From Fibrobacter sp. (GTDB lineage: Bacteria > Fibrobacterota > Fibrobacteria > Fibrobacterales > Fibrobacteraceae), in contig JAKSIF010000004.1 of the NCBI GenBank assembly GCA_024398965.1, forward strand, positions 62,001 to 126,000: a stretch of 64,000 nucleotides of DNA, given 5' to 3'. Of this stretch, positions 1-41,045 are shown in pieces. A model generated the notes under the pieces. It did no database searches. It had not been told where the DNA came from and worked only from the letters and a program-made list of their open reading frames with translations. Every line of letters starts with the position of its first letter. The first letter of the stretch is position 1. Made by a program: the position numbers and the translations under genes.

Positions 1-210
1 GTTAAGGCCCAAGGTTCCGTCGCCAGTGCCGAAGGCGATCTTTGCATCGGCTTCAGAGAGGCCTGCGCCGCCCTGCCAGGTATTATGAACCATGCCGCCG
101 AAACCGCGAATGACCTGATGTTCTTCACCAACGTCCACATTCACGGTAGAAGCCCCTGCGATAGCAGCAGCGCTGAGGCAAAGAGCGAAAAATTTTTTAG
201 AGAGTTTCAT
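1..210 (-). CDS. Secreted GH30-type glycoside hydrolase, N-terminus only
   Basis: Only the first 70 residues are in the window; the gene runs off the left edge. The protein begins with a Sec signal peptide (MKLSKKFF, then an Ala-rich core, likely cleaved near AIAGA-S). The mature start has VDVGEEHQVIRGFGGM followed by HNTW and LSEADAKIAFG, which resembles the N-terminal strand and first loops of GH30 xylanase/glucanase-type enzymes (the family signature is close to 'QxIxGFGG'). The inferred role is extracellular hydrolysis of a plant cell-wall polysaccharide such as glucuronoxylan. The start is set by ATG at 208-210, preceded on the minus strand by an AAAGGA Shine-Dalgarno. The catalytic acids lie outside the window, so family and activity are inferred from the N-terminus alone. 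Confidence 0.72.
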   Translation of the reverse strand, partial: MKLSKKFFALCLSAAAIAGASTVNVDVGEEHQVIRGFGGMVHNTWQGGAGLSEADAKIAFGTGDGTLGLN

Positions 211-303: not shown

Positions 304-322
304 TATGGACAATATGTCCATA
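304..322. promoter_or_regulatory. Palindromic operator TATGGAC-N5-GTCCATA
   Basis: A perfect inverted repeat with 7-bp arms around AATAT. The core TGGAC-N5-GTCCA recurs at 2780-2794 and, with one imperfect arm, at 62261-62275. Each time it lies 53-56 bp upstream of a -10-like hexamer, about where a class I activator binds. No partner protein can be assigned from the sequence. Confidence 0.6.
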
Positions 323-482: not shown

Positions 483-499
483 GTGGATAAAATATCCAC
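483..499. promoter_or_regulatory. Palindrome GTGGATA-AAA-TATCCAC
   Basis: A perfect 7-bp inverted repeat with a 3-bp AAA centre, between the lipoprotein terminator (531-566) and the TTTACATGTAAA pair. It could be an operator or a small hairpin. With the neighbouring palindromes it accounts for most of the 380-bp stretch 211-590, which has no convincing coding sequence. Confidence 0.4.
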
Positions 500-590: not shown

Positions 591-1844
591 CTAAGGTCTT
601 TCGAATTCCTTGACACCGAAGATTTCGATATCATCGACCCAGAGGTCGTAACCCTTACCACCACCGAAGATGCTGATGTTGGTCACATGATCCTTTACAG
701 CTTCCCAGCCGATGTTTCCACCATTGGTGTCTGTTTCAGGATCCCTGAAGTCGGAAGGAACTACAACAATACGGTTCCATTCGCCATTGATAGACTTATG
801 AGCCCAAGCCTTACCGGACTTGTACTCAGAAGTGCTGTCTACAAGCACATCGAAAGCAATGCTAACCCACTGGGTATCTGCATCTGCACTTCCTCGAATC
901 CACAGTACGACAGAGTCCATAGTGCTGAAGTCCTGCATTTCAGAGAATGCGTGGCCAATCAAAGCCCAGTTATACAGGGAATCGTTGGTATACTCGAAGT
1001 GTGCAGCCAGGCCACTGCGGCCCATTCCGGCCTCGTCGGCAGAAAGCTTTCCAGTAGCATGCTTAGACAAGGCCGTATACCAACCATAGGTACTGTCTTC
1101 GAAATCTTCGAACATGGTGGGAGATACGTTGACCGTGTCACGAGGAGTGCCGATCACGACATCTTCAACGGCTTCGTCGGATGCAAGGGAAACAGTATGC
1201 TTACCAACCGGCATGTACTTGTCGTAATTCTGGATCTTACCCGTTTCATCAACATAAGGCTGAACAGAATATACAAAGGCCAGCACAGACAAATCGCCTT
1301 CCGGCACAGACGGGAACTCGAAGTTACCGAGAGTGTCAGTCTTGACAGTGTAATCCAAGCCAACGATACCAACACTCACCGTCTTTGCTGCAGCAGGCAG
1401 AACTACCTGACCCTTGACGGAGGCTGCCGGAGTCATAACCACTGTATCAGAGAATGCAGAATCATCCTCGGCAAGAGTAAAGTGAATTGCACCCTTCATG
1501 TCTTCGCCATTACGGGCTTCGATCACATAGCTTCCTGCCTTAAGGGAATCAATAATGACAAGACCACTATCGTTGGTCTTGGCATTAACAAAGCCCTTGG
1601 AGTAATCATCCTTATTAAAGCGAATACCAGAGCCAGCAACAAAATCATCAGGACGGACAATCACCTGCATGCGTGCAGCAGGCTTGCCGTTGGAATACTG
1701 GACAACGACAGCATTGTTTGCAACGGAGTTTTCTGTTTCCAACGTTGAACCTGCGGTATTGGTATTATCACCGCAAGCAACGATGGATGCTCCCGTAGCA
1801 GCCATCAGCAAAGCTAATCCATAATAACACACCGTCTGTTTCAT
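591..1844 (-). CDS. Surface lipoprotein paired with TIGR02147 regulator (pair A)
   Basis: A 417-residue lipoprotein. The signal peptide ends in a lipobox (SIVAC, Cys 24), so the protein is probably anchored in the outer membrane. Residues about 45-125 and 130-190 look like two small beta-sandwich domains of carboxypeptidase-regulatory/CnaB type, the second with VGIVGLDYTV and a DTLGNFEFPSVPEGDL turn. The last 170 residues start with FEDFEDS and end with LWVDDIEIFGV, the pattern of CIA30/CBM11-like galactose-binding folds, so carbohydrate binding is inferred. Its ATG overlaps the stop of the upstream TIGR02147 gene by four bases (ATGA), implying translational coupling. The same architecture occurs at 17531-18802 and 36675-38423. 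Function is unproven. Confidence 0.82.
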   Translation of the reverse strand: MKQTVCYYGLALLMAATGASIVACGDNTNTAGSTLETENSVANNAVVVQYSNGKPAARMQVIVRPDDFVAGSGIRFNKDDYSKGFVNAKTNDSGLVIIDSLKAGSYVIEARNGEDMKGAIHFTLAEDDSAFSDTVVMTPAASVKGQVVLPAAAKTVSVGIVGLDYTVKTDTLGNFEFPSVPEGDLSVLAFVYSVQPYVDETGKIQNYDKYMPVGKHTVSLASDEAVEDVVIGTPRDTVNVSPTMFEDFEDSTYGWYTALSKHATGKLSADEAGMGRSGLAAHFEYTNDSLYNWALIGHAFSEMQDFSTMDSVVLWIRGSADADTQWVSIAFDVLVDSTSEYKSGKAWAHKSINGEWNRIVVVPSDFRDPETDTNGGNIGWEAVKDHVTNISIFGGGKGYDLWVDDIEIFGVKEFERP

Positions 1845-2704
1845 TTCGACTCCCTTGCGTCGTCCTCCGTTTCCTTAGCCGTTGGAACCCCTCCCTTACG
1901 GGCCACCGGATAGAATGCCAAAGAAAGCTGCATTACACGGTCTGGGCTCTTAGCGCTATCGACGCGTTTTTGAACAAGACGTCTAAATTCCTTGAGCATA
2001 TCGCCCAAATCATCAAAGCACGCCTGATCAACGGATAATGTAAGAGTAGAAATATTTCGTTCTTCGACAGGAACATTATCCAAAGAATCACTGGCCAAAG
2101 CAAGCACTTGTTTTTGGAATTTGCGTACAGCAACCTTTTTTTCGGGGCCAGAGGCAGTCAAATGAGCTTCGGAAAGAGCAAGTCTACCAGAAGCCATCTT
2201 CTTGACAAAACCAACCTCGAGCAAGGTATCGATTGCTTCCTGAGCCTGAGCCTCCGTAATCGGGGGGCAAATGTCATGAGCAATCTGCTTCAGATTCACG
2301 ACGCCGCCGTTCAGTTCAAGATAGGCACGGACAGCAGGAATCCACCAGTTTTCCAAAAGCTTGAGCTCTGCAGCCTGAAGGCTATGGCGGTCCACATCAC
2401 GAAGGGACAAAGCCTTTGCCATCATTTCTTCTTTTTTTGCCTTATCCTTAGTGACCGCAGCAGTATAGAGCAGGTCAAAGTACTCAGCCTCACGACCAGT
2501 GAGTGCCAAGATTTCCTTTGCAGAGGAAAGAGCATGAGCAGGCAGATGCTGCTTTTTCTGCAACACACGGTATAGATAGCTGGAGTCGAGCCCCAGCTTG
2601 TCACCCATCATACGGTAGCTGTAGAAAGGCATTTCAGCCTTCTTGCGATCGTAGTAAGACTTCAAAAAGTCGCGGTAATCCGCAATGTCAGAAAAAGTAA
2701 CCAT
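1841..2704 (-). CDS. TIGR02147 family protein (DUF4423), putative DNA-binding regulator, pair A
   Basis: A 287-residue soluble protein of the TIGR02147 family, which is expanded in Fibrobacter. The N-terminus carries the family start 'DYRDFLKSYYD'. Residues about 33-55 (MMGDKLGLDSSYLYRVLQKK) read like an XRE-type helix-turn-helix. A second winged-helix-like region follows at about 140-180 (ITEAQAQEAIDTLLEVGFVKK). The C-terminus has the conserved 'RNIST...D.L.EFRRLVQ' and 'DRVMQLSLAFYPV' blocks seen in both paralogues here. A transcription-regulator role is inferred from the HTH and the coupled lipoprotein; it is not established. ATG at 2702-2704 has GGAAAG upstream and a TACATT hexamer at 2732-2737. 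Confidence 0.85.
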   Translation of the reverse strand: MVTFSDIADYRDFLKSYYDRKKAEMPFYSYRMMGDKLGLDSSYLYRVLQKKQHLPAHALSSAKEILALTGREAEYFDLLYTAAVTKDKAKKEEMMAKALSLRDVDRHSLQAAELKLLENWWIPAVRAYLELNGGVVNLKQIAHDICPPITEAQAQEAIDTLLEVGFVKKMASGRLALSEAHLTASGPEKKVAVRKFQKQVLALASDSLDNVPVEERNISTLTLSVDQACFDDLGDMLKEFRRLVQKRVDSAKSPDRVMQLSLAFYPVARKGGVPTAKETEDDARESK

Positions 2705-2731: not shown

Positions 2732-2737
2732 AATGTA
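2732..2737 (-). promoter_or_regulatory. -10-like hexamer of pair A
   Basis: TACATT on the minus strand, 27 nt before the TIGR02147 start. The leader has a GGAAAG ribosome binding site. The palindrome at 2780-2794 is centred about 53 bp upstream, the same geometry as for the GH30-type gene. Confidence 0.45.
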
Positions 2738-2779: not shown

Positions 2780-2794
2780 TGGACGTTTTGTCCA
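2780..2794. promoter_or_regulatory. Palindromic operator TGGAC-N5-GTCCA
   Basis: A 5-bp inverted repeat around GTTTT with the same core as the site at 304-322. It lies in the shared control region of pair A (minus) and the Fic-type gene (plus). Confidence 0.55.
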
Positions 2795-2802
2795 AGCCCC
2801 CC

Positions 2803-2983: not shown

Positions 2984-3961
2984 ATGCTATACATACACCA
3001 ATACCCTGATTGGACCAGATTCCGCTACGACCACAAGCACGTCATAAACGCCCTCGGCGAAGTCCGCAAGGCACAAGGCAAGCTGATTGCCATGGCTCAG
3101 ATTTGTAACGGCGCCGACATGGAGCAGCAAATACTTTTACAGGAAATGGTCGATAACGCAGCCATTGACGGCATCCAGCTTCATGCGGACGACCTAAAAA
3201 AGGCAATGGACAACATCCAAGCCACAGACAAGCCCATTTCTGCAGAAAGCCTGCTAAGCTGGCATGCATCAATCATGCAGACGGGAACCTCCCGTTTCCG
3301 CACACTGGATTCAGAACTGCGATGCAGCCTGGGCGAAAAGCAACTTTCTTTTTCAGGCCCCCACCATGAGACATTGTTTCAGCAGGTAACCAACTTTACC
3401 ACCTGGGTAAGTATCGCAAATCTCGACGGGATCATCAAGGCGGCCATATCGCATTTCTGGCTCTTGACACTACGCCCGTTTGCAAGGGGCAACGGCCGCG
3501 TAACCCGCATGATTACTGCGATGGAACTATCCAAGTCCAGCGATGGAGCCCCCTACCTCTACCCCATCAACACACAAATCCTAGAAAAGAAGGACGAGTA
3601 CTTCGACATTCTGAACAGAACCCAAAAAGGAAGTGGCGACATTACGGAATGGATCCTCTGGTTCTTGAATATCCTGCAACAATCCATTGAGAAAAGCCTG
3701 GCTAAGCTGACCGAACGCGCAGACAAGATCCGTTTCCAGCAACGGTTCGCAAATATAGCCCTCAGCATCAGGGAACAAACTATTGTAGACGCAGTTTCGA
3801 CTGGCAAGTTGCCTCAGCAATTCTCGGCCAAGGACGTAGGAGCCCTGCTCAGTGCAAGTCACGACACCGCTCTTCGAGAAATCCAAAGCCTTATTGCAAA
3901 GGGTGTGTTCAAGGCCGCAGCCAAGGGCGGCAGAAGTCAAAGATATTGCCTGGCCGAATAA
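2984..3961 (+). CDS. Fic/DOC-family protein with altered catalytic motif
   Basis: A 325-residue protein with the architecture of DUF4172-type Fic proteins: an N-terminal region (YIHQYPDWTRFRYD...RKAQGKL, 1-40), a Fic domain (about 95-215) and a C-terminal winged-helix-like segment (about 270-325). Fic enzymes AMPylate target proteins using HPFx(D/E)GNGRxxR. Here the loop reads LRPFARGNGRVTR, so the catalytic His is Arg164 (codon CGC at 3473-3475). The inhibitory helix (S/TxxxEG in the family) is NAAIDG at 58-63, with Glu changed to Asp. The GNGR anion-binding loop remains. AMP transfer is therefore probably lost or changed; a DNA-binding or phosphotransfer role is possible. It is divergent from pair A and convergent with the next gene. 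Confidence 0.85.
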   Translation: MLYIHQYPDWTRFRYDHKHVINALGEVRKAQGKLIAMAQICNGADMEQQILLQEMVDNAAIDGIQLHADDLKKAMDNIQATDKPISAESLLSWHASIMQTGTSRFRTLDSELRCSLGEKQLSFSGPHHETLFQQVTNFTTWVSIANLDGIIKAAISHFWLLTLRPFARGNGRVTRMITAMELSKSSDGAPYLYPINTQILEKKDEYFDILNRTQKGSGDITEWILWFLNILQQSIEKSLAKLTERADKIRFQQRFANIALSIREQTIVDAVSTGKLPQQFSAKDVGALLSASHDTALREIQSLIAKGVFKAAAKGGRSQRYCLAE

Positions 3962-16538: not shown

Positions 16539-16647
16539 TATTTTTACAAAAATCCCTCAAAATATGTTCCAAAAAGGAGTGTTGAGAATTGGTGTTGTAA
16601 ATTAGGCAACGGAAGTTCAACACCGTCAACGATTTGTAATATTTTCT

Positions 16648-16673: not shown

Positions 16674-17531
16674 ATGCCTGAAGTATTAGAATATTTGGAA
16701 TATCGTGAGTTTTTGAGAGATTGGTTTGTCGAAACAAAGAAGGACAACCCATTTACCTCATACCGCTATCTTGGCCAGAAGACCGGCGTAGACCCGGCCT
16801 GGCTTGTTCGTGTATTCCAGAAGGAAGGTCACCTGAACGAGAGCACCCTGCCGGTGTTCATCCGCCTTTGCGGCCTGGACGACCGTCGTGCCGAATACTT
16901 CAAGACCCTTTACCGTTTTAACAAGACCAAGGCGAAGCAGGCTCTTTCCGAGCTTTACTACCGCCTTATGGAACTGCGCTCCCTGGAAACCCGCGTGCTT
17001 TCCACCCCGGAACTTTCCTACTTCGGAAGCTGGGCCTGCGCAGCCCTTCGCGCCCTCATCGGCATTACCAAGGACACCAGCGACATTAGCAAGCTGGGTT
17101 CCAACCTGACTCCCGCCATCTCCCAGGATGAAGCCCGCAACGCCCTTGGCGTCATGAAGCAGCTGGGCCTTGTGGTTCCCGACGGCAATGGCGGTTGGAA
17201 CATTACCGACCAGATTATCAGTACTGGCGGCGAAGTCAAGAGCACTGCCGTCCGCGACTTCCATAGACACACCATGGAACTGGCATTGGAATCCCTGGAC
17301 CGCCACAAGCCCGAGGATCGTGACATTTCCAGCGTGGTGTTTACTGCCGACGAGTCCGACTTGCCGGAAATTCGCCATCGCATCGAGGAATTCCGCCGTG
17401 GACTCCTTCAGTTCGCCCGCAAGAGCGAACGAGCCGATCGCGTTTACGCCCTGAACGTGGCCATGTTCCCGCTTTCCAACAAGGTTGACGACCCTTGCAC
17501 AGGTTCTGAACCGCCTCAAGGGGGAAAGTGA
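16674..17531 (+). CDS. TIGR02147 family protein (DUF4423), putative DNA-binding regulator, pair B
   Basis: 285 residues, a paralogue of the proteins at 1841-2704 and 38420-39256. It has the family start (EYLEYREFLRDWF), an HTH-like segment at about 32-55 (YLGQKTGVDPAWLVRVFQKE), a second helical/winged region with SQDEARNALGVMKQLGLVV, and the C-terminal RDISSVVFTAD...EFRRGLLQF...NVAMFPL blocks. The role is inferred to be transcriptional control linked to the coupled lipoprotein. Base composition is more GC-rich than in the neighbouring rec genes, but the N-terminus aligns in length with its paralogues, so ATG 16674 is the right start. The stop TGA overlaps the next ATG by one base. Confidence 0.85.
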   Translation: MPEVLEYLEYREFLRDWFVETKKDNPFTSYRYLGQKTGVDPAWLVRVFQKEGHLNESTLPVFIRLCGLDDRRAEYFKTLYRFNKTKAKQALSELYYRLMELRSLETRVLSTPELSYFGSWACAALRALIGITKDTSDISKLGSNLTPAISQDEARNALGVMKQLGLVVPDGNGGWNITDQIISTGGEVKSTAVRDFHRHTMELALESLDRHKPEDRDISSVVFTADESDLPEIRHRIEEFRRGLLQFARKSERADRVYALNVAMFPLSNKVDDPCTGSEPPQGGK

Positions 17532-18802
17532 TGAACTTTAGCAAGGATTTTTTATATCTTTCAAGTGTGCGCAAGTCATATAGAACATCTGCACGCCTTG
17601 TAAGGAGCGTTTCAACTGCTGCCGTGGCCCTCGGTTTTGGCCTCGGTCTTTCCGCATGTTCCGATAACGCAAAGATTGCAGGTGGCGGCCCCTCTGGCAC
17701 AGAAGCCGGCAACGCCATTACCGCACAGATTTTAACAGCAGACGCAAAGCCTGCCGCACTGGCCAAGGTCAAGTTGACTCATGTCGACGCCCTGGACAAT
17801 ATCGGTTCCTATACCGCAGAAACCGATAACGACGGTTCCGTCACCATTGCAAACGTTGCCGACGGCAGCTACATTCTTGAAGCAGCTCAGGGCAATGGAG
17901 CTCTCCAGGTGAACGTGAATATGGCAAGCGAAAGCGTCGATCTCGGTTCCAACAACCTTGCAAAGATGGTCTCTGTCTCCGGCTCCATCGACAACGCCTC
18001 CGAAGGTACTGTCAGGGTTCGTGGTCTCGACCATTCCGCAGCAGTTGTCAACGGGGAATACTCCCTGGATTCCCTGCCGGCAGGTCACCTGGACCTGGTA
18101 TTCATTCCTAAGGAAGCCTCCAAGGACACCATCAGTTCCTACATCAGGACTGTGGCCGGAGAAAGCGCAACTTCCAGCACCTTCGCGGGAGAAAAGGATG
18201 CCCTCCTATTGGACGATTTCCAGGACCATAACAACCAGCACCGTTTCGGCCCCATGTACTTCGGCCCCAGCGATGGCGGCTGGTGGTACCTCTCCCATTC
18301 CGAAAACGTCATTGCTACGAATGGGCTTGACTCCAAGGGCTATCTCAAGCTGGATAAGGATGGAGACAACTACTTCGTTCATGCCACCCTGGATTTTGAT
18401 ACCTATAAGGATTCTCTTTTCTACGACGAAAATGACAACAGAATCTGGCCCTGGGCAAACCTTGGCGTAGGCATCGGCAGCAACGACAAGTCCATCTGCT
18501 ACGACCTCACCTCTGTCAGCTCCGTGGCATTCATGGCCAAGGGCGATGGCTATTTCAAGTTCGTACTTGTTGACGAATCCCACAAGACCGATTCCTTCGA
18601 CGGTGTTTTTGCGGAAGCCGAATACCGCCTGTCCGACGAATGGACTCGTTACGAAGTCAACCTTGAAGGTATTGTCGACAAGAACCGCGGAAGCCTGAAG
18701 TGCGTTACACTGCTTACATGGTCCTTCACGGAATCCATCGATTTCTGGATGGACAATGTTGAACTTGTGGGTGGCGACCGCCTGAGCATCTGGCCTAGGT
18801 AA
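17531..18802 (+). CDS. Surface lipoprotein paired with TIGR02147 regulator (pair B)
   Basis: A 423-residue lipoprotein. A long positively charged N-region leads to a hydrophobic core and lipobox GLSAC. GGGPSGTEAGNAITAQIL then opens two small beta domains (about 55-130, 135-200) with the paralogue motif VRGLDHSAAVV and SLDSLPAGHLDLVFIP. From about 215 the C-terminal domain begins LLLDDFQDHNNQ and ends IDFWMDNVELVGG, the CIA30/CBM11-like pattern of a galactose-binding fold. I chose ATG 17531, with AGGGGG upstream, over the overlapping GTG at 17528. The stop overlaps the methyltransferase start downstream. Ligand unknown; plant polysaccharide is a guess from the organism. Confidence 0.82.
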   Translation: MNFSKDFLYLSSVRKSYRTSARLVRSVSTAAVALGFGLGLSACSDNAKIAGGGPSGTEAGNAITAQILTADAKPAALAKVKLTHVDALDNIGSYTAETDNDGSVTIANVADGSYILEAAQGNGALQVNVNMASESVDLGSNNLAKMVSVSGSIDNASEGTVRVRGLDHSAAVVNGEYSLDSLPAGHLDLVFIPKEASKDTISSYIRTVAGESATSSTFAGEKDALLLDDFQDHNNQHRFGPMYFGPSDGGWWYLSHSENVIATNGLDSKGYLKLDKDGDNYFVHATLDFDTYKDSLFYDENDNRIWPWANLGVGIGSNDKSICYDLTSVSSVAFMAKGDGYFKFVLVDESHKTDSFDGVFAEAEYRLSDEWTRYEVNLEGIVDKNRGSLKCVTLLTWSFTESIDFWMDNVELVGGDRLSIWPR

Positions 18803-36674: not shown

Positions 36675-38423
36675 CTAGTACAGCACGCCGTAAATCTTTA
36701 CATCGTCTATGAAGATTTCGTTTCCACCACTGGGGAAGAAATGCAGCTGTTTCACATGGTCCTTGACACTGTTCCAGGCCTTGGCGCAAGACCATATTTC
36801 ATCGGCGTTGATGCAAAGTTCAGAAGGCTTGACTACATACTTCTTCCAGTCACCAGTCAGTTCGATCCAGTCCGATGCAGCCTTATCCTTCTTGGTGTAG
36901 GATTCCCAGTTTTCCAGAGAAACCTTGACCTTGCCGTAAGACTTGCTGGAACCAACCTTAACTCCCTTGGCGTAGAACTCAATGGAATCCACAGCGGAGA
37001 AATTCCTGACCTTGTCCATGCCGGTACCCACAAGCACCCAGGCGTAAGGGTCCATTCCTATTTCGTAGCGGGTATAGAAGACATTGGAGCCACGATCTTC
37101 ATCCATCTGCAGATGGTCTGCCAGCAGGTGGGTTCCATCCACCTTGCCGTTCGCAAACTTGAAAGTAGAGCCTTTGTACAGGGTATCCACGCTCATGTAC
37201 CAGTTCGGATCATCTTCCTCGAAGTCATACAGGAACTTCACCGGGTTCAAGCCCACAAAACCTTCCTTGGGAGCCTTGATAGACCACTCCACAAAGGGAA
37301 CGCTATCCTGCTCGTGTACAAAGTAAATCGTCAGGGAATCGCCTGCAGGAAGTGCGGGCAAAACATAGGCGCCAATCTCGTTTGTCTTTACCAGAACATC
37401 CAATCCGTAAACGCCAACCCATGCAAACTCTTCACCACTATCAAGAGTAACCTGGCTTGAAATCGCAGAGGACTCAGCCAATTTCAAGGTATCTATTTTA
37501 GACAAACTAATGGCATCATAGACCTTGGAGAAGGAACTTACGCCAAGAGTTGCAGTCAAGCGGTATTCCCCAGAATCGGGAAGGGTCATAGCGACCTTTC
37601 CATCTAAACCTGCAACCAGGTCGGCCTTGACAAGGTCGTTCTGCAAGGTGAAGGCTTCCACCATGTGGTCCTTAAGCCTGATGGATACGGATGCATTTGC
37701 CGCAGGGGTTCCATCTTCTTGCAGGATGATAATCTTCTTCAGTGTATCCACAGGAGCTTCCAGGGAGTCCGCAGGATCTTCCTTGGTGGAGTCGACCGGG
37801 GCCACCACCGGCTCCTTATAGCTTTCGTAGGCAAACTCGGTGGGAGTAAAGTAGACCTGTTCCTTGGACAGAACCTTCTCGTAGTCTTCACTGACAAAGT
37901 ACAGCTGCAGGGAATCGTTTGCCGGCAAGGCAGGAAGAACGAACACGCCATTAGCGTCAGAAGGCACCAGGATGTCTGTGCCGAGCACACCCACCCAAAC
38001 AATGCCGGAGCCATCGGGAATGTCGGTCTCGCCCTTCATGACTGCAGTTGCCACCAGGGGAACAGAGTCAAGGGCTGCATAGCTCTCTGCGGAAACCACC
38101 TTGGTAAAGGCAGCACCATTGTATACCACAGTCAAACGGAAATCGCCCTTCTCAGGGACATCAAGGTTAAAGCGACCCATGCTGTCGGTATAGGCGTCAG
38201 CCACCACGATGGAGTTTTCCGCCTGAGCGGAGGCAGCCATGTGATCCACTTTTCTCAAGGCCACGCGGGCATTGGGAGCAACCTCGCCATCGACGTGAGC
38301 AACGATACCGTTTGTGGTGATGCTACCAGGACCACCAGCAACCCCTTTCTCATCGGAACAAGCCAGCATACTCAAAGAGCCGGCTATTGCCAGGGGCAAA
38401 AGAAAATATGAAAGCTTTCTCAT
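36675..38423 (-). CDS. Surface lipoprotein paired with TIGR02147 regulator (pair C)
   Basis: 582 residues, the largest of the three paired lipoproteins. Signal peptide with lipobox SMLAC (Cys 22), then GGPGSITTNGIVAHV. The small beta-domain pair seen once in the paralogues is duplicated: block 1 about 35-205 and block 2 about 230-385, both with 'WVGVxGxDxLV', 'GxxVLPALPAxDSLxxYFV' and a KxDHM motif, separated by a Pro/Asp/Ser linker (VDSTKEDPADSLEAPVDTL). The C-terminal domain starts NPVKFLYDFEEDDPNWYMS and ends IFIDDVKIYGVLY, the CIA30/CBM11-like galactose-binding pattern with SVDSIEFYAKG. The ATG overlaps the regulator stop by four bases (ATGA). Confidence 0.83.
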   Translation of the reverse strand: MRKLSYFLLPLAIAGSLSMLACSDEKGVAGGPGSITTNGIVAHVDGEVAPNARVALRKVDHMAASAQAENSIVVADAYTDSMGRFNLDVPEKGDFRLTVVYNGAAFTKVVSAESYAALDSVPLVATAVMKGETDIPDGSGIVWVGVLGTDILVPSDANGVFVLPALPANDSLQLYFVSEDYEKVLSKEQVYFTPTEFAYESYKEPVVAPVDSTKEDPADSLEAPVDTLKKIIILQEDGTPAANASVSIRLKDHMVEAFTLQNDLVKADLVAGLDGKVAMTLPDSGEYRLTATLGVSSFSKVYDAISLSKIDTLKLAESSAISSQVTLDSGEEFAWVGVYGLDVLVKTNEIGAYVLPALPAGDSLTIYFVHEQDSVPFVEWSIKAPKEGFVGLNPVKFLYDFEEDDPNWYMSVDTLYKGSTFKFANGKVDGTHLLADHLQMDEDRGSNVFYTRYEIGMDPYAWVLVGTGMDKVRNFSAVDSIEFYAKGVKVGSSKSYGKVKVSLENWESYTKKDKAASDWIELTGDWKKYVVKPSELCINADEIWSCAKAWNSVKDHVKQLHFFPSGGNEIFIDDVKIYGVLY

Positions 38424-39256
38424 TTTTCCTTCTCCTGAAGGGGTTTAACAAATGCCAGGGGGAACAGCTGAATATTCAACTGGAAAATCGTGTTGTCTCC
38501 CGAACCTTCCTGAGATAAACGTAGTAAATCCGTGCGGAATTCGTTGATCTTTTCACGAATCAGCTGGATATCATCCATGTTAAACGTCATGGTGACGGTG
38601 CTGATATCGCGAAGATGGGGAGCATGGCGTTCCAGGGACTCGCCTGCAAGCGCGATGGTATCTTTCTGGAACTGACGGACAGCGGCAGAGCGCCAGTTTC
38701 CACCGGTGCTGACGAAAGTGTCGTTCACCTTCCAGAATCCCTCGCGGTCCGTAGAAATCATGTTCAAGTCGGCAAGGAGCTGAACGGCGGCCTTGGCCTC
38801 CTTGACGGTAATCTGCGGGGTACAGCACTCCGCAAGGCCCTCGTAGTCATCCTTGAAACGGCTAATGCCGATAATGGAACGGATGGCGTTGTAGTACCAA
38901 TGGCGATAGAATTCCAGTTCCTTCTTGGCCAGAAGCTTAAGGGAAACACCCTTCAAGGCCTGCATGCGTTCGTAATGCTGCAGGGCCTCATTGTCGGTCT
39001 TTGCACGACCGAAGAACACCATTTCAGTCCAGTAGGCAGTTTCCTTTTCGTCTAGCCCGAAAAACTCCGCCAGCGGCTTAATATAGCTGGTAGATAGATG
39101 AATCTTGCCCTGGGACATCCTCAGGAGGTTACCGGGGTCGGCACCAATCTTCATGGCCATGTAACGCCAGGAAATAATCGACTTACGCTGTTTAAAGTCA
39201 TCAAACGCGTCGCGCAACCACTCACGGTAATCGGTATATTCAAATATCTGCTTCAT
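38420..39256 (-). CDS. TIGR02147 family protein (DUF4423), putative DNA-binding regulator, pair C
   Basis: 278 residues, paralogous to 1841-2704 and 16674-17531. Family start FEYTDYREWLRDAFDDF, HTH-like YMAMKIGADPGNLLRMSQGK (about 31-50), a central ITVKEAKAAVQLLADLNMIS winged-helix-like unit, and the C-terminal RDISTVTMTFN...EFRTDLLRLS...NIQLFPL blocks. Role inferred as a regulator. TATCTT lies seven bases before ATG and no Shine-Dalgarno is visible, so this copy is probably leaderless, unlike pair A. Upstream is the diguanylate cyclase/small lipoprotein unit on the same strand. Confidence 0.85.
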   Translation of the reverse strand: MKQIFEYTDYREWLRDAFDDFKQRKSIISWRYMAMKIGADPGNLLRMSQGKIHLSTSYIKPLAEFFGLDEKETAYWTEMVFFGRAKTDNEALQHYERMQALKGVSLKLLAKKELEFYRHWYYNAIRSIIGISRFKDDYEGLAECCTPQITVKEAKAAVQLLADLNMISTDREGFWKVNDTFVSTGGNWRSAAVRQFQKDTIALAGESLERHAPHLRDISTVTMTFNMDDIQLIREKINEFRTDLLRLSQEGSGDNTIFQLNIQLFPLAFVKPLQEKEK

Positions 39257-39302: not shown

Positions 39303-39698
39303 TCAATCTCCGTTGTTGAACTTTACAACAACATTAAGGTCCTTGTCACAGGTAGCAATCCATTTGCATTCCGGGGAGTTTTCCAAGGAGGAATCGTCGC
39401 AGAACCCTTTAAATTCAAGGATTTCGGGATTTTCGCCATTCGCCCCATAGAACACGTTGTAGCCCAAAAGTCCAGCCTTGGACTTGACTACAGGTTCTTC
39501 GCCCATAAGACGACCTGTGATGAAGATTACACAATTATCCTTGTTTTCCAGCTGGGACTCATCCTGCCCTGGTTCGGCAATCCAGCGAATCTGGATCGGC
39601 CTAAAGTCAGCCTCAGGGTCCTGCTTGGCGCAGCCGACAAGGCCGACCACAGGTCCTAGACAGAGTGCCAAAGAGGTAAGTATCCTGGAACAAGCCAT
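39303..39698 (-). CDS. Small lipoprotein
   Basis: 131 residues. Signal peptide with lipobox GLVGC (Cys 23). The mature part of about 108 residues has several Cys (DNCVIF, GFCDDSS, PECKW, ATCDKD) that could form two disulfides, and a beta-rich pattern (IQIRWIAEPG, CKWIATCDKDLNVVVKFNNGD). Not recognised. It starts 18 bases after the diguanylate cyclase stop, so the two are probably co-transcribed, and it is followed by pair C on the same strand without an obvious terminator. Confidence 0.72.
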   Translation of the reverse strand: MACSRILTSLALCLGPVVGLVGCAKQDPEADFRPIQIRWIAEPGQDESQLENKDNCVIFITGRLMGEEPVVKSKAGLLGYNVFYGANGENPEILEFKGFCDDSSLENSPECKWIATCDKDLNVVVKFNNGD

Positions 39699-39716: not shown

Positions 39717-41045
39717 TTAGCGGACTCGCTTGAAAGTTGCGCTGGTAACGCGGTTTCGACCGCTTTCCTTGGAAGCGTACAGAGCCTTGTCTGCACGTTC
39801 AAACAGACGCTTGGGATCTTCGCCGGCCACCATTTCGGCAATACCGAAGGAGCAGGTCACCTGCTGCTGAGGAATCAGCTTGGCATTCTCGATTGCCATA
39901 CGGAGTTTTTCAGCAAGGAATTGAGCGTTCTGGATAGGCGTATCCGCACAAAGAATCACAAATTCTTCACCACCCCAACGAACCAGGGCGTCGGTATTGC
40001 GGATCTTGCTCAGGATCAACTTTGTAAGACCGACAAGGACCTCGTCACCCACGTTATGGCCATAGGAGTCATTGATATTCTTGAAGTGGTCGATGTCCAA
40101 GATGATGAAGGATACAGGACTATCGTTCTTGATAAGATTTTCCTGTTCACGGAGCAAAATGCTGCTGAAGCCAGCACGGTTGAGACATCCAGTAAGGGGG
40201 TCTTCCTTACTGCTCTTCTCGTACTCGCTCTTCTCGATTTCCAGGGCGCGCAAGTTCTTTTCCAGTTCCTCACGTTTCTTCTTGGCTGCAGCTCGTTCAC
40301 GGCTATAATCAAAGAAGCGGATAATCAAGATAATGAAGAAGGTCACGAACCACATGGCCACCAGGGCCGTCACCAGCTTTTCCTTCTGGATCATCTTGCC
40401 CTTGAAGCAAAGGCCGCGAATTTCCAAGGTTCCGTAACCAAGGGGAGCGTTGGTACCTGTCTGGATTTCGATAAGGGGAATGTTGCTCAGGTCTACACGG
40501 GCATTATGAACGTTGATCTCGTTCTGGGCAACCCACCAACCGGCCACACGGAATTCCTGGGGAACAAAGACGGCAGGGTACTTTTCTTCTAGAGGGAAGA
40601 ATTCAATTTCGTTAAACTTGAGGGAGGTTTCGTCGCCTTCGCGGGAGAACGCAGGATCAAAGCCACGCATGTAAAGACGAACGGTTCCTTCGCCACGGGG
40701 CTTTACCCATACAAAGATGCTGTCGTACTGAGACAAGTCCTTGCCATGAGCCTTACCATCGCCGAGGAAGATCTTGAGACCCACGTAAGGATAGGCATAC
40801 CCCTCGCGAAGCTCGTAGTCGACCACGATAGAAGAATCGGTCTTGCTCAACTGGACGGCAGAAGAACCGCCATCAGCAGAGTCCGTCTCCACCATCAGGT
40901 AGGGATAGTCCACAAGATTCAACATTTCGATCTTGTCCAGGCCATTCTGATAGGACAAGATGGCGATGACCGTAACAGCCAACAGCACCACAATCAGAAT
41001 GTTCATTCTGAAAAGAAGATAAAGCTTTTCCAAAAGAATCGACAT
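39717..41045 (-). CDS. Membrane diguanylate cyclase with carbohydrate-binding-like ectodomain
   Basis: 442 residues. TM1 about 12-31, a periplasmic domain about 35-222, TM2 about 225-245, a coiled coil (about 248-285, KKKREELEKNLRALEIEKSEYEK) and a GGDEF domain. The active site is GGEEF and an RNTD I-site lies five residues before it, so synthesis of c-di-GMP with product inhibition is expected. The ectodomain contains DLSQYDSIFVWVKPRG, TVRLYMRGFDP and GYGTLEIRGLCFKG, which resemble the DSxxFxxKG and DDxEIxG patterns at the lipoprotein C-termini here: a galactose-binding-like sensor. The trigger could be a sugar or another surface component. The promoter TATATT is at 41081-41086. Confidence 0.9.
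   Translation of the reverse strand: MSILLEKLYLLFRMNILIVVLLAVTVIAILSYQNGLDKIEMLNLVDYPYLMVETDSADGGSSAVQLSKTDSSIVVDYELREGYAYPYVGLKIFLGDGKAHGKDLSQYDSIFVWVKPRGEGTVRLYMRGFDPAFSREGDETSLKFNEIEFFPLEEKYPAVFVPQEFRVAGWWVAQNEINVHNARVDLSNIPLIEIQTGTNAPLGYGTLEIRGLCFKGKMIQKEKLVTALVAMWFVTFFIILIIRFFDYSRERAAAKKKREELEKNLRALEIEKSEYEKSSKEDPLTGCLNRAGFSSILLREQENLIKNDSPVSFIILDIDHFKNINDSYGHNVGDEVLVGLTKLILSKIRNTDALVRWGGEEFVILCADTPIQNAQFLAEKLRMAIENAKLIPQQQVTCSFGIAEMVAGEDPKRLFERADKALYASKESGRNRVTSATFKRVR

Follow-up and report, generated by a model that had tools for sequence, protein, structure and literature searches.

Paired TIGR02147 regulators and lipoproteins in Fibrobacter and their predicted operators at hemicellulase genes

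The window analyzed here is a 64,000-nucleotide stretch of a Fibrobacter genome, and three two-gene modules, each with a TIGR02147 regulator gene followed by a lipoprotein gene, were confirmed at the positions at which an earlier note, made from the sequence alone, had read them. Module 1 is on the minus strand (regulator, 1841..2704; lipoprotein, 591..1844), module 2 on the plus strand (regulator, 16674..17531; lipoprotein, 17531..18802) and module 3 on the minus strand (regulator, 38420..39256; lipoprotein, 36675..38423). The regulator stop and lipoprotein start codons had been described as overlapping, as ATGA twice and TGATG once, and this held in all three modules: the overlap was four nucleotides (ATGA) at 1841-1844 and at 38420-38423, and a single nucleotide in module 2 (TGATG, 17529-17533). 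Orthologs of the regulators were found in 60 of the 61 genomes of the genus for module 1, 49 for module 2, and 51 for module 3. The start of a GH30/CBM6 enzyme gene lies at the left edge (1..210, minus strand) and runs on beyond the window (contig C4:60045-62210). A Fic-family-like gene (2984-3961) is divergent from module 1, and the intergenic region with the predicted module 1 operator is common to both. Upstream of module 3 is a small lipoprotein ORF (39303-39698), the 3' end of which overlaps the predicted module 3 operator, and upstream of that, on the same strand, is a gene for a GGDEF protein (39717-41045).

By score, the three window regulators are members of the family TIGR02147 (Fsuc_second; 189.5, 218 and 337 bits, cut-off 50) and of DUF4423 (PF14394; 93-111 bits, cut-off 30), models that carry no function. 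In the AF2 model of the regulator (pLDDT 80), residues 8-90 resembled HigA and the P22 c2 repressor (Z about 7-8) and residues 109-267 an ArsR/MarR-type winged helix (best match 4g6q, Z 8.7), both as aligned with VIA-align. With Foldseek alone no match reached E 0.001, and the domain assignment rests on VIA-align. Absence of a DNA-binding fold would have counted against the earlier note; an XRE-type HTH and a winged helix were predicted. No sigma-factor domain was detected in the regulators in Pfam and NCBIfam scans, and PDB profile searches by sequence returned nothing convincing for either the regulator or the lipoprotein. The regulator paralogs have diverged to 21-34% identity, with modules 2 and 3 the most similar in the window (34%). 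The TIGR02147 protein is probably a cytoplasmic, DNA-binding transcription activator, and probably a dimeric one, with binding, activation and dimerization all inferred.

All three window lipoproteins had a lipobox cysteine (by sequence inspection and a rule-based scan), beta domains of the CarboxypepD_reg type (Pfam, with weak to strong scores), a G(L/T)D motif and a related C-terminal domain. Two CarboxypepD_reg-like domains were present in the module 1 lipoprotein, and the small beta domains were duplicated in that of module 3. The best match to a model of the C-terminal domain was the CBM11 of Clostridium thermocellum Lic26A-Cel5E (1v0a; Z 10.3, rmsd 3.4, 133 residues aligned), with 6r3m as the CBM11 match in Foldseek (E 4e-5), and the model also matched CIA30 (7zkq, Z 9.2). 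Confidence in this model was limited (pLDDT 62, only three input sequences), and by sequence the Pfam CBM11 model matched neither the window lipoproteins, at E up to 1, nor any of 15 orthologs. Structure prediction, proposed in the earlier note as a check, returned the CBM-type end, and the CBM11/CIA30-like domain that had been read by eye agrees with the structure matches. The end of the lipoprotein is matched best by a beta-sandwich of the CBM type, as far as this model allows, while glycan binding and surface exposure are inferred.

The earlier description of shared beta domains, G(L/T)D motif and CBM11/CIA30-like end was correct for the window, but a CBM11-like end is not the common feature of the family: partner lipoproteins elsewhere end in Laminin_G_3, CBM_4_9, pectate lyase or Fib_succ_major domains. 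Common to the partners were the 20-25 residues after the lipid cysteine, a motif found almost nowhere else. In module 1 this motif is CGDNTNTAGSTLETENSVA (1719..1775, minus strand), with ETEN invariant in 15 orthologs; in module 2 it is CSDNAKIAGGGPSGTEAGNAIT (17657..17740, plus strand), and in module 3 CSDEKGVAGGPGSITTNGIV (38289..38360, minus strand). Similarity between unrelated pairs of lipoproteins was above the shuffled level in the motif and at the shuffled level in the next 60 residues. The motif was among the best conserved stretches in orthologs of the window lipoproteins, which overall were 42-53% identical, compared with 80-92% for the regulators. Neither an anti-sigma domain nor a membrane-spanning part for inward signalling was found in the partner lipoproteins.

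The three copies stood for the window, but the genome as a whole contained 24 TIGR02147 matches, 23 of them intact genes. The 24th match (C6:59655-59828) belongs to a GNAT acetyltransferase ORF, the C-terminus of which is made up of the ~58 final residues of the TIGR02147 fold, indicating that this end piece moves as a unit. A lipoprotein gene was directly downstream of 21 of the 23 intact regulators, at a spacing of -14 to +15 nt, and in one case the order was reversed, with the lipoprotein 3 nt upstream, so that 22 of 23 adjoined a lipoprotein. The lone regulator was C30:14193, and the only orphan lipoprotein with the motif was C9:65014. In the sister genome G005, the ortholog of the former (86% identity) is the divergent neighbor of the ortholog of the latter (39%, full length), and with this pair each regulator can be assigned a single motif lipoprotein and vice versa. 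In its own genome, C30:14193 has a convergent lipoprotein ORF downstream (CSDDESSDPV...), which is without the N-terminal motif.

A profile (A2) was built on the 20-25 motif residues of 20 training members and run on the whole of their own genome. It recovered the 20 members and two weak matches, the upstream-placed partner and C9:65014, both of which are accounted for as partners. In G005, which was outside the training set, 14 of 16 matches followed a regulator, one was the divergent partner, and one was non-adjacent. Two stretches of G005 (C1:640-648 kb and C1:716-729 kb) held regulator/lipoprotein modules in tandem, in runs of three that appear to be recent duplications.

The pairing was also conserved across the phylum. 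By an automatic rule, 231 of 240 non-redundant regulators had a lipoprotein ORF directly downstream, and five more were added by eye (~236/240), the corresponding figure for other genes of this DNA being 75 of 696. At least one paired member was present in 76 of 78 regulator clusters (clustered at 62% identity), and the commonest spacing among the 240 was a 4-nt overlap (80 cases). The coupling inferred from three copies was thereby borne out, and the earlier note's refuting outcome, a majority of TIGR02147 genes without a lipoprotein partner, did not arise. Each of the 41 genomes from the first search for relatives had the family, at 2 to more than 50 copies, and pairing was also seen in G040, a genome related only at the level of the phylum. 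A search with a narrower regulator profile found relatives in Fibrobacter only, Bdellovibrio relatives being outside its reach, and a search of viral contigs found no relatives.

Operators were located by footprinting of orthologous promoters; there are no binding data. A separate dyad, some 80 nt before the regulator gene, was found for each window module. For module 1, the dyad TTGGAYAAAANRTCCA or a close variant was the single conserved block in 28 orthologous promoters and, where kept exactly, was 71-93 nt upstream of the regulator start codon; the predicted operator in the window, which is also supported by matches elsewhere in the genome, is TTGGACAAAACGTCCA (2780..2795, minus strand). 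The predicted module 2 operator, GTTGTAAATTAGGCAACG (16594..16611, plus strand), has the form GTTG-N9-CAAC and lies at -80 to -82, relative to the start codon, in 31 of 31 orthologous promoters. That of module 3, GTTGTAAAGTTCAACAACG (39311..39329, minus strand), contains the dyad GTTGTAAAN6CAACG, present in 11 of 11 orthologous promoters. The dyads of modules 2 and 3 were the most similar, as were their regulators. A fourth paralog (C27), 44% identical to the module 1 regulator, had a different, CWTTG-N9-CAAWG-like dyad.

Matrices for these four predicted operators scored 25-29 bits at their own promoters and no more than 14 bits at those of the remaining 22 regulators of the genome. The matrices were trained on the same promoters, and the diagonal is partly built in, so the comparison indicates that the operators differ but is not independent proof of binding. 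Compensatory changes in the module 1 dyad were considered and dropped, as Y..R pairs were counted in all combinations, and no covariation is claimed. Conserved repeated elements (TTTTGTATCAT-like, GTGTTCCC, and AAAGTGTRGAC) were also observed upstream of regulator groups 0, 1, 3, 4 and 5 and may be further operators.

The module 1 dyad TTGGAYAAAANRTCCA was not confined to the module itself, and was also found 74-107 nt upstream of genes for GH10, GH43, GH27, GH2 and GH30 enzymes and esterases. Counted by pattern searches of the whole genome, there were 7 exact matches where 0.14 were expected, and the reversed control gave 1 at one mismatch. The seven exact sites precede module 1, two GH10 genes, a GH30 gene, two GH43 genes and a gene for an esterase-like lipoprotein, and a one-mismatch site is upstream of GH27. 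Two predicted operators of this type are in the window upstream of the GH30 gene, ATGGACATATTGTCCAT (305..321, minus strand), about 95 nt from the start codon, and GTGGATAAAATATCCAC (483..499, plus strand). In other Fibrobacter genomes, the dyad was present in 12 of 14, with 35 occurrences compared to 6 control matches, all 6 in one genome. Twenty-four of the 30 sites examined there were 21-100 nt upstream of the regulator or of GH10, GH43, RGL11, esterase or similar secreted-enzyme genes.

A matrix built from the regulator promoters only was also used to scan the 193-kb contig. Twelve of its 15 matches were at 22.0-64.8 kb, in a 43-kb hemicellulase cluster, where column-permuted matrices gave a mean of 0.6 and a maximum of 3 matches. 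Genes in this cluster encode GH10, GH95, GH2, GH43, GH141-like, GH27 and GH30 enzymes, a CBM6 esterase and a SASA esterase, most with CBM6. The cluster (C4:22000-62000) ends at the left edge of the window, and module 1 is at its edge. A further TIGR02147/lipoprotein module, a fourth beside the window's three, is also in the cluster (C4:40223-42708). Beyond the cluster, this picture rests on a subset of the hemicellulase genes.

Six genomes carried the module 3-type dyad before a GH11 xylanase gene, at a distance of 83-89 nt (GH11 confirmed by Pfam in two of these and identified in the others by near-identical sequence), and the dyad was also found upstream of CotH and feruloyl-esterase-like genes. 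For module 2, there was no second site in the 430 kb or so covered by local matrix scans, except for a chance match inside an ORF, and no regulon was found. The earlier note could not have shown the function of the modules, as the hemicellulase cluster is just beyond the edge of the window and the operators only emerge from comparison between genomes. It is very probable, as judged from site placement in the absence of binding or expression data, that the module 1 and module 3 regulators control these hemicellulase genes.

The predicted operators also had a constant position within the promoters. For module 1, 29 target promoters and 28 self promoters had a TAnnTTT element beginning 58-59 nt downstream of the first position of the operator, and the same spacing was observed for module 3, its GH11 targets and C27. 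In the window, a TAnnTT element (TACATT; 2732..2737, minus strand), the probable -10 element of the module 1 promoter, is 58 nt from the operator start. If TAnnTTT is a -10 type element, the center of the operator would be near -62, a class I activator position (near -61.5), the transcription start site itself being inferred. On the basis of this position, the regulator is likely to be an activator of these promoters, although repression is not excluded.

Taken together, these comparisons suggested that each module is an autoregulated activator switch, with a lipoprotein input, for the degradation of plant polysaccharides. The TIGR02147 activator would bind its own dyad about 62 bp upstream of the transcription start, in class I geometry, and its targets would be its own operon and a set of secreted enzymes: GH10, GH43, GH27, GH2 and GH30 enzymes and esterases for module 1, and the GH11 xylanase and a few others for module 3. 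The lipoprotein would be translated from the same mRNA, mostly via the overlapping stop and start codons, and exported, and its carbohydrate-binding-type end would be the part most likely to meet the polymer. It would then act as the dedicated input partner, reporting which polymer is at hand through the conserved segment by the lipid anchor and a relay that has not been identified. We consider this explanation as a whole reasonably likely, its pairing, paralog-specific operators, regulon, promoter geometry and folds coming from comparison and its binding, activation, dimerization and sensor role from inference.

The sensor role is the least certain of these steps. The earlier note had already suggested that the modules form one system, in which the regulator is coupled to a lipoprotein that senses or binds at the surface; the pairing and the folds support it, and the sensor step is unproven. 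Whether the lipoprotein modulates the regulator at all we regard as an even question. The regulator may instead control the operon and the enzymes in response to an intracellular signal, such as growth rate or a sugar, with the lipoprotein a co-made surface glue or binder. There is no transmembrane link between the two proteins, and the lipoprotein orthologs diverge fast next to those of the regulators. In RNA-seq of strain S85, hemicellulases were low when the cells were attached to cellulose and high when they grew slowly on soluble sugars, for which no polymer sensor is needed (PMC6204037), although this pattern is compatible with both a sensor lipoprotein and a co-expressed binder. However, a mere output gene should often be lost, moved or replaced, yet the pairing is nearly universal in the phylum and survives both reversal of gene order and separation, and one short motif is kept whatever domains come after it. 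An intracellular signal is a possibility that deserves to be taken seriously, though we would not expect it to be correct.

The direction of control is a separate matter. Many XRE-type proteins, including HigA and P22 c2, are repressors, autoregulation is common among repressors, and a position near -62 would be compatible with repression too. Repression of these promoters nevertheless appears unlikely, as the operator center is about 50 bp upstream of the -10-like element, in constant phase in self and target promoters, and clear of the core promoter. It is more doubtful still that another transcription factor binds the dyads and that the TIGR02147 operons are merely members of its regulon. 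Without binding data, such dyads would suit many dimeric regulators, but a separate factor would be needed for each of four dyads at the same place before different TIGR02147 paralogs, the closest regulators of the window have the closest dyads, and the regulators themselves have an XRE-type HTH. Finally, that the adjacency is a by-product of recent duplication of one ancestral pair, without functional meaning, finds some support in the tandem copies in G005 but can practically be set aside, because adjacency and motif persist among regulators at 21-34% identity with lipoprotein bodies at chance level, in several families, and in the phylum-level relative G040.

The autoregulated activator switch has parallels among known systems. 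In C. thermocellum, several paralogous SigI/RsgI pairs per genome each consist of a sigma factor and a transmembrane anti-sigma factor with external carbohydrate-binding domains, and SigI drives its own operon and plant-cell-wall enzymes. The modules described here are similar in being paralogous pairs that would control cell-wall enzymes and themselves, which for the window modules rests on operator comparison only. They differ in that an HTH activator takes the place of the sigma factor and the partner is lipid-anchored and without a membrane-spanning part, and they are not members of that system. The regulators of Bacteroidota PULs (SusR, hybrid two-component systems and ECF sigma/anti-sigma pairs) sense through periplasmic or membrane domains, either of the regulator itself or of its anti-sigma factor. 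Local control of polysaccharide-degrading genes and the TAnnTTT-type promoter element are shared with these, but TIGR02147 has no periplasmic or membrane sensor domain. The fold of residues 8-90 is shared with the XRE repressors HigA and P22 c2, from which the regulator differs by its second, winged-helix domain (109-267) and the activator-type operator position.

Fibrobacter species are plant-fiber digesters of herbivore guts. The control of their fiber-degrading enzymes was called unanswered in the S85 genome paper (PMC3079729), and by RNA-seq S85 hemicellulases are tightly regulated in several co-expression groups, with no regulator named (PMC6204037); neither paper names a TIGR02147-type regulator. 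A literature search found no open-access paper naming TIGR02147, and DUF4423 appeared in one only, as an entry in a Bdellovibrio proteome table (PMC12546842). The lipoprotein partner, the operators and the regulon of the TIGR02147 family are new here.

According to the DNA evidence, hemicellulose-degrading enzymes are switched on by at least two of the window's paired regulators, a prediction made without binding or expression data. From it come candidate hemicellulase regulators together with their operators, a list of genes predicted to be controlled, and a layout of the promoters. A broader and more tentative idea, which we offer as conjecture, is that sensing throughout the phylum works through a lipid-anchored glycan-binding protein, without a membrane-spanning part, that instructs its own cytoplasmic activator by way of the conserved segment beside the lipid anchor, with one private pair per plant polymer. 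Possible routes inward would be retention of the regulator by an unprocessed precursor, release of a peptide and its return to the cell interior, or an inner-membrane relay shared by the pairs. The mechanistic question that these modules raise is how information could pass from a lipid-anchored protein to an activator in the cytoplasm, and the role proposed here would be the first function for a family with tens of paralogs per genome across the phylum.
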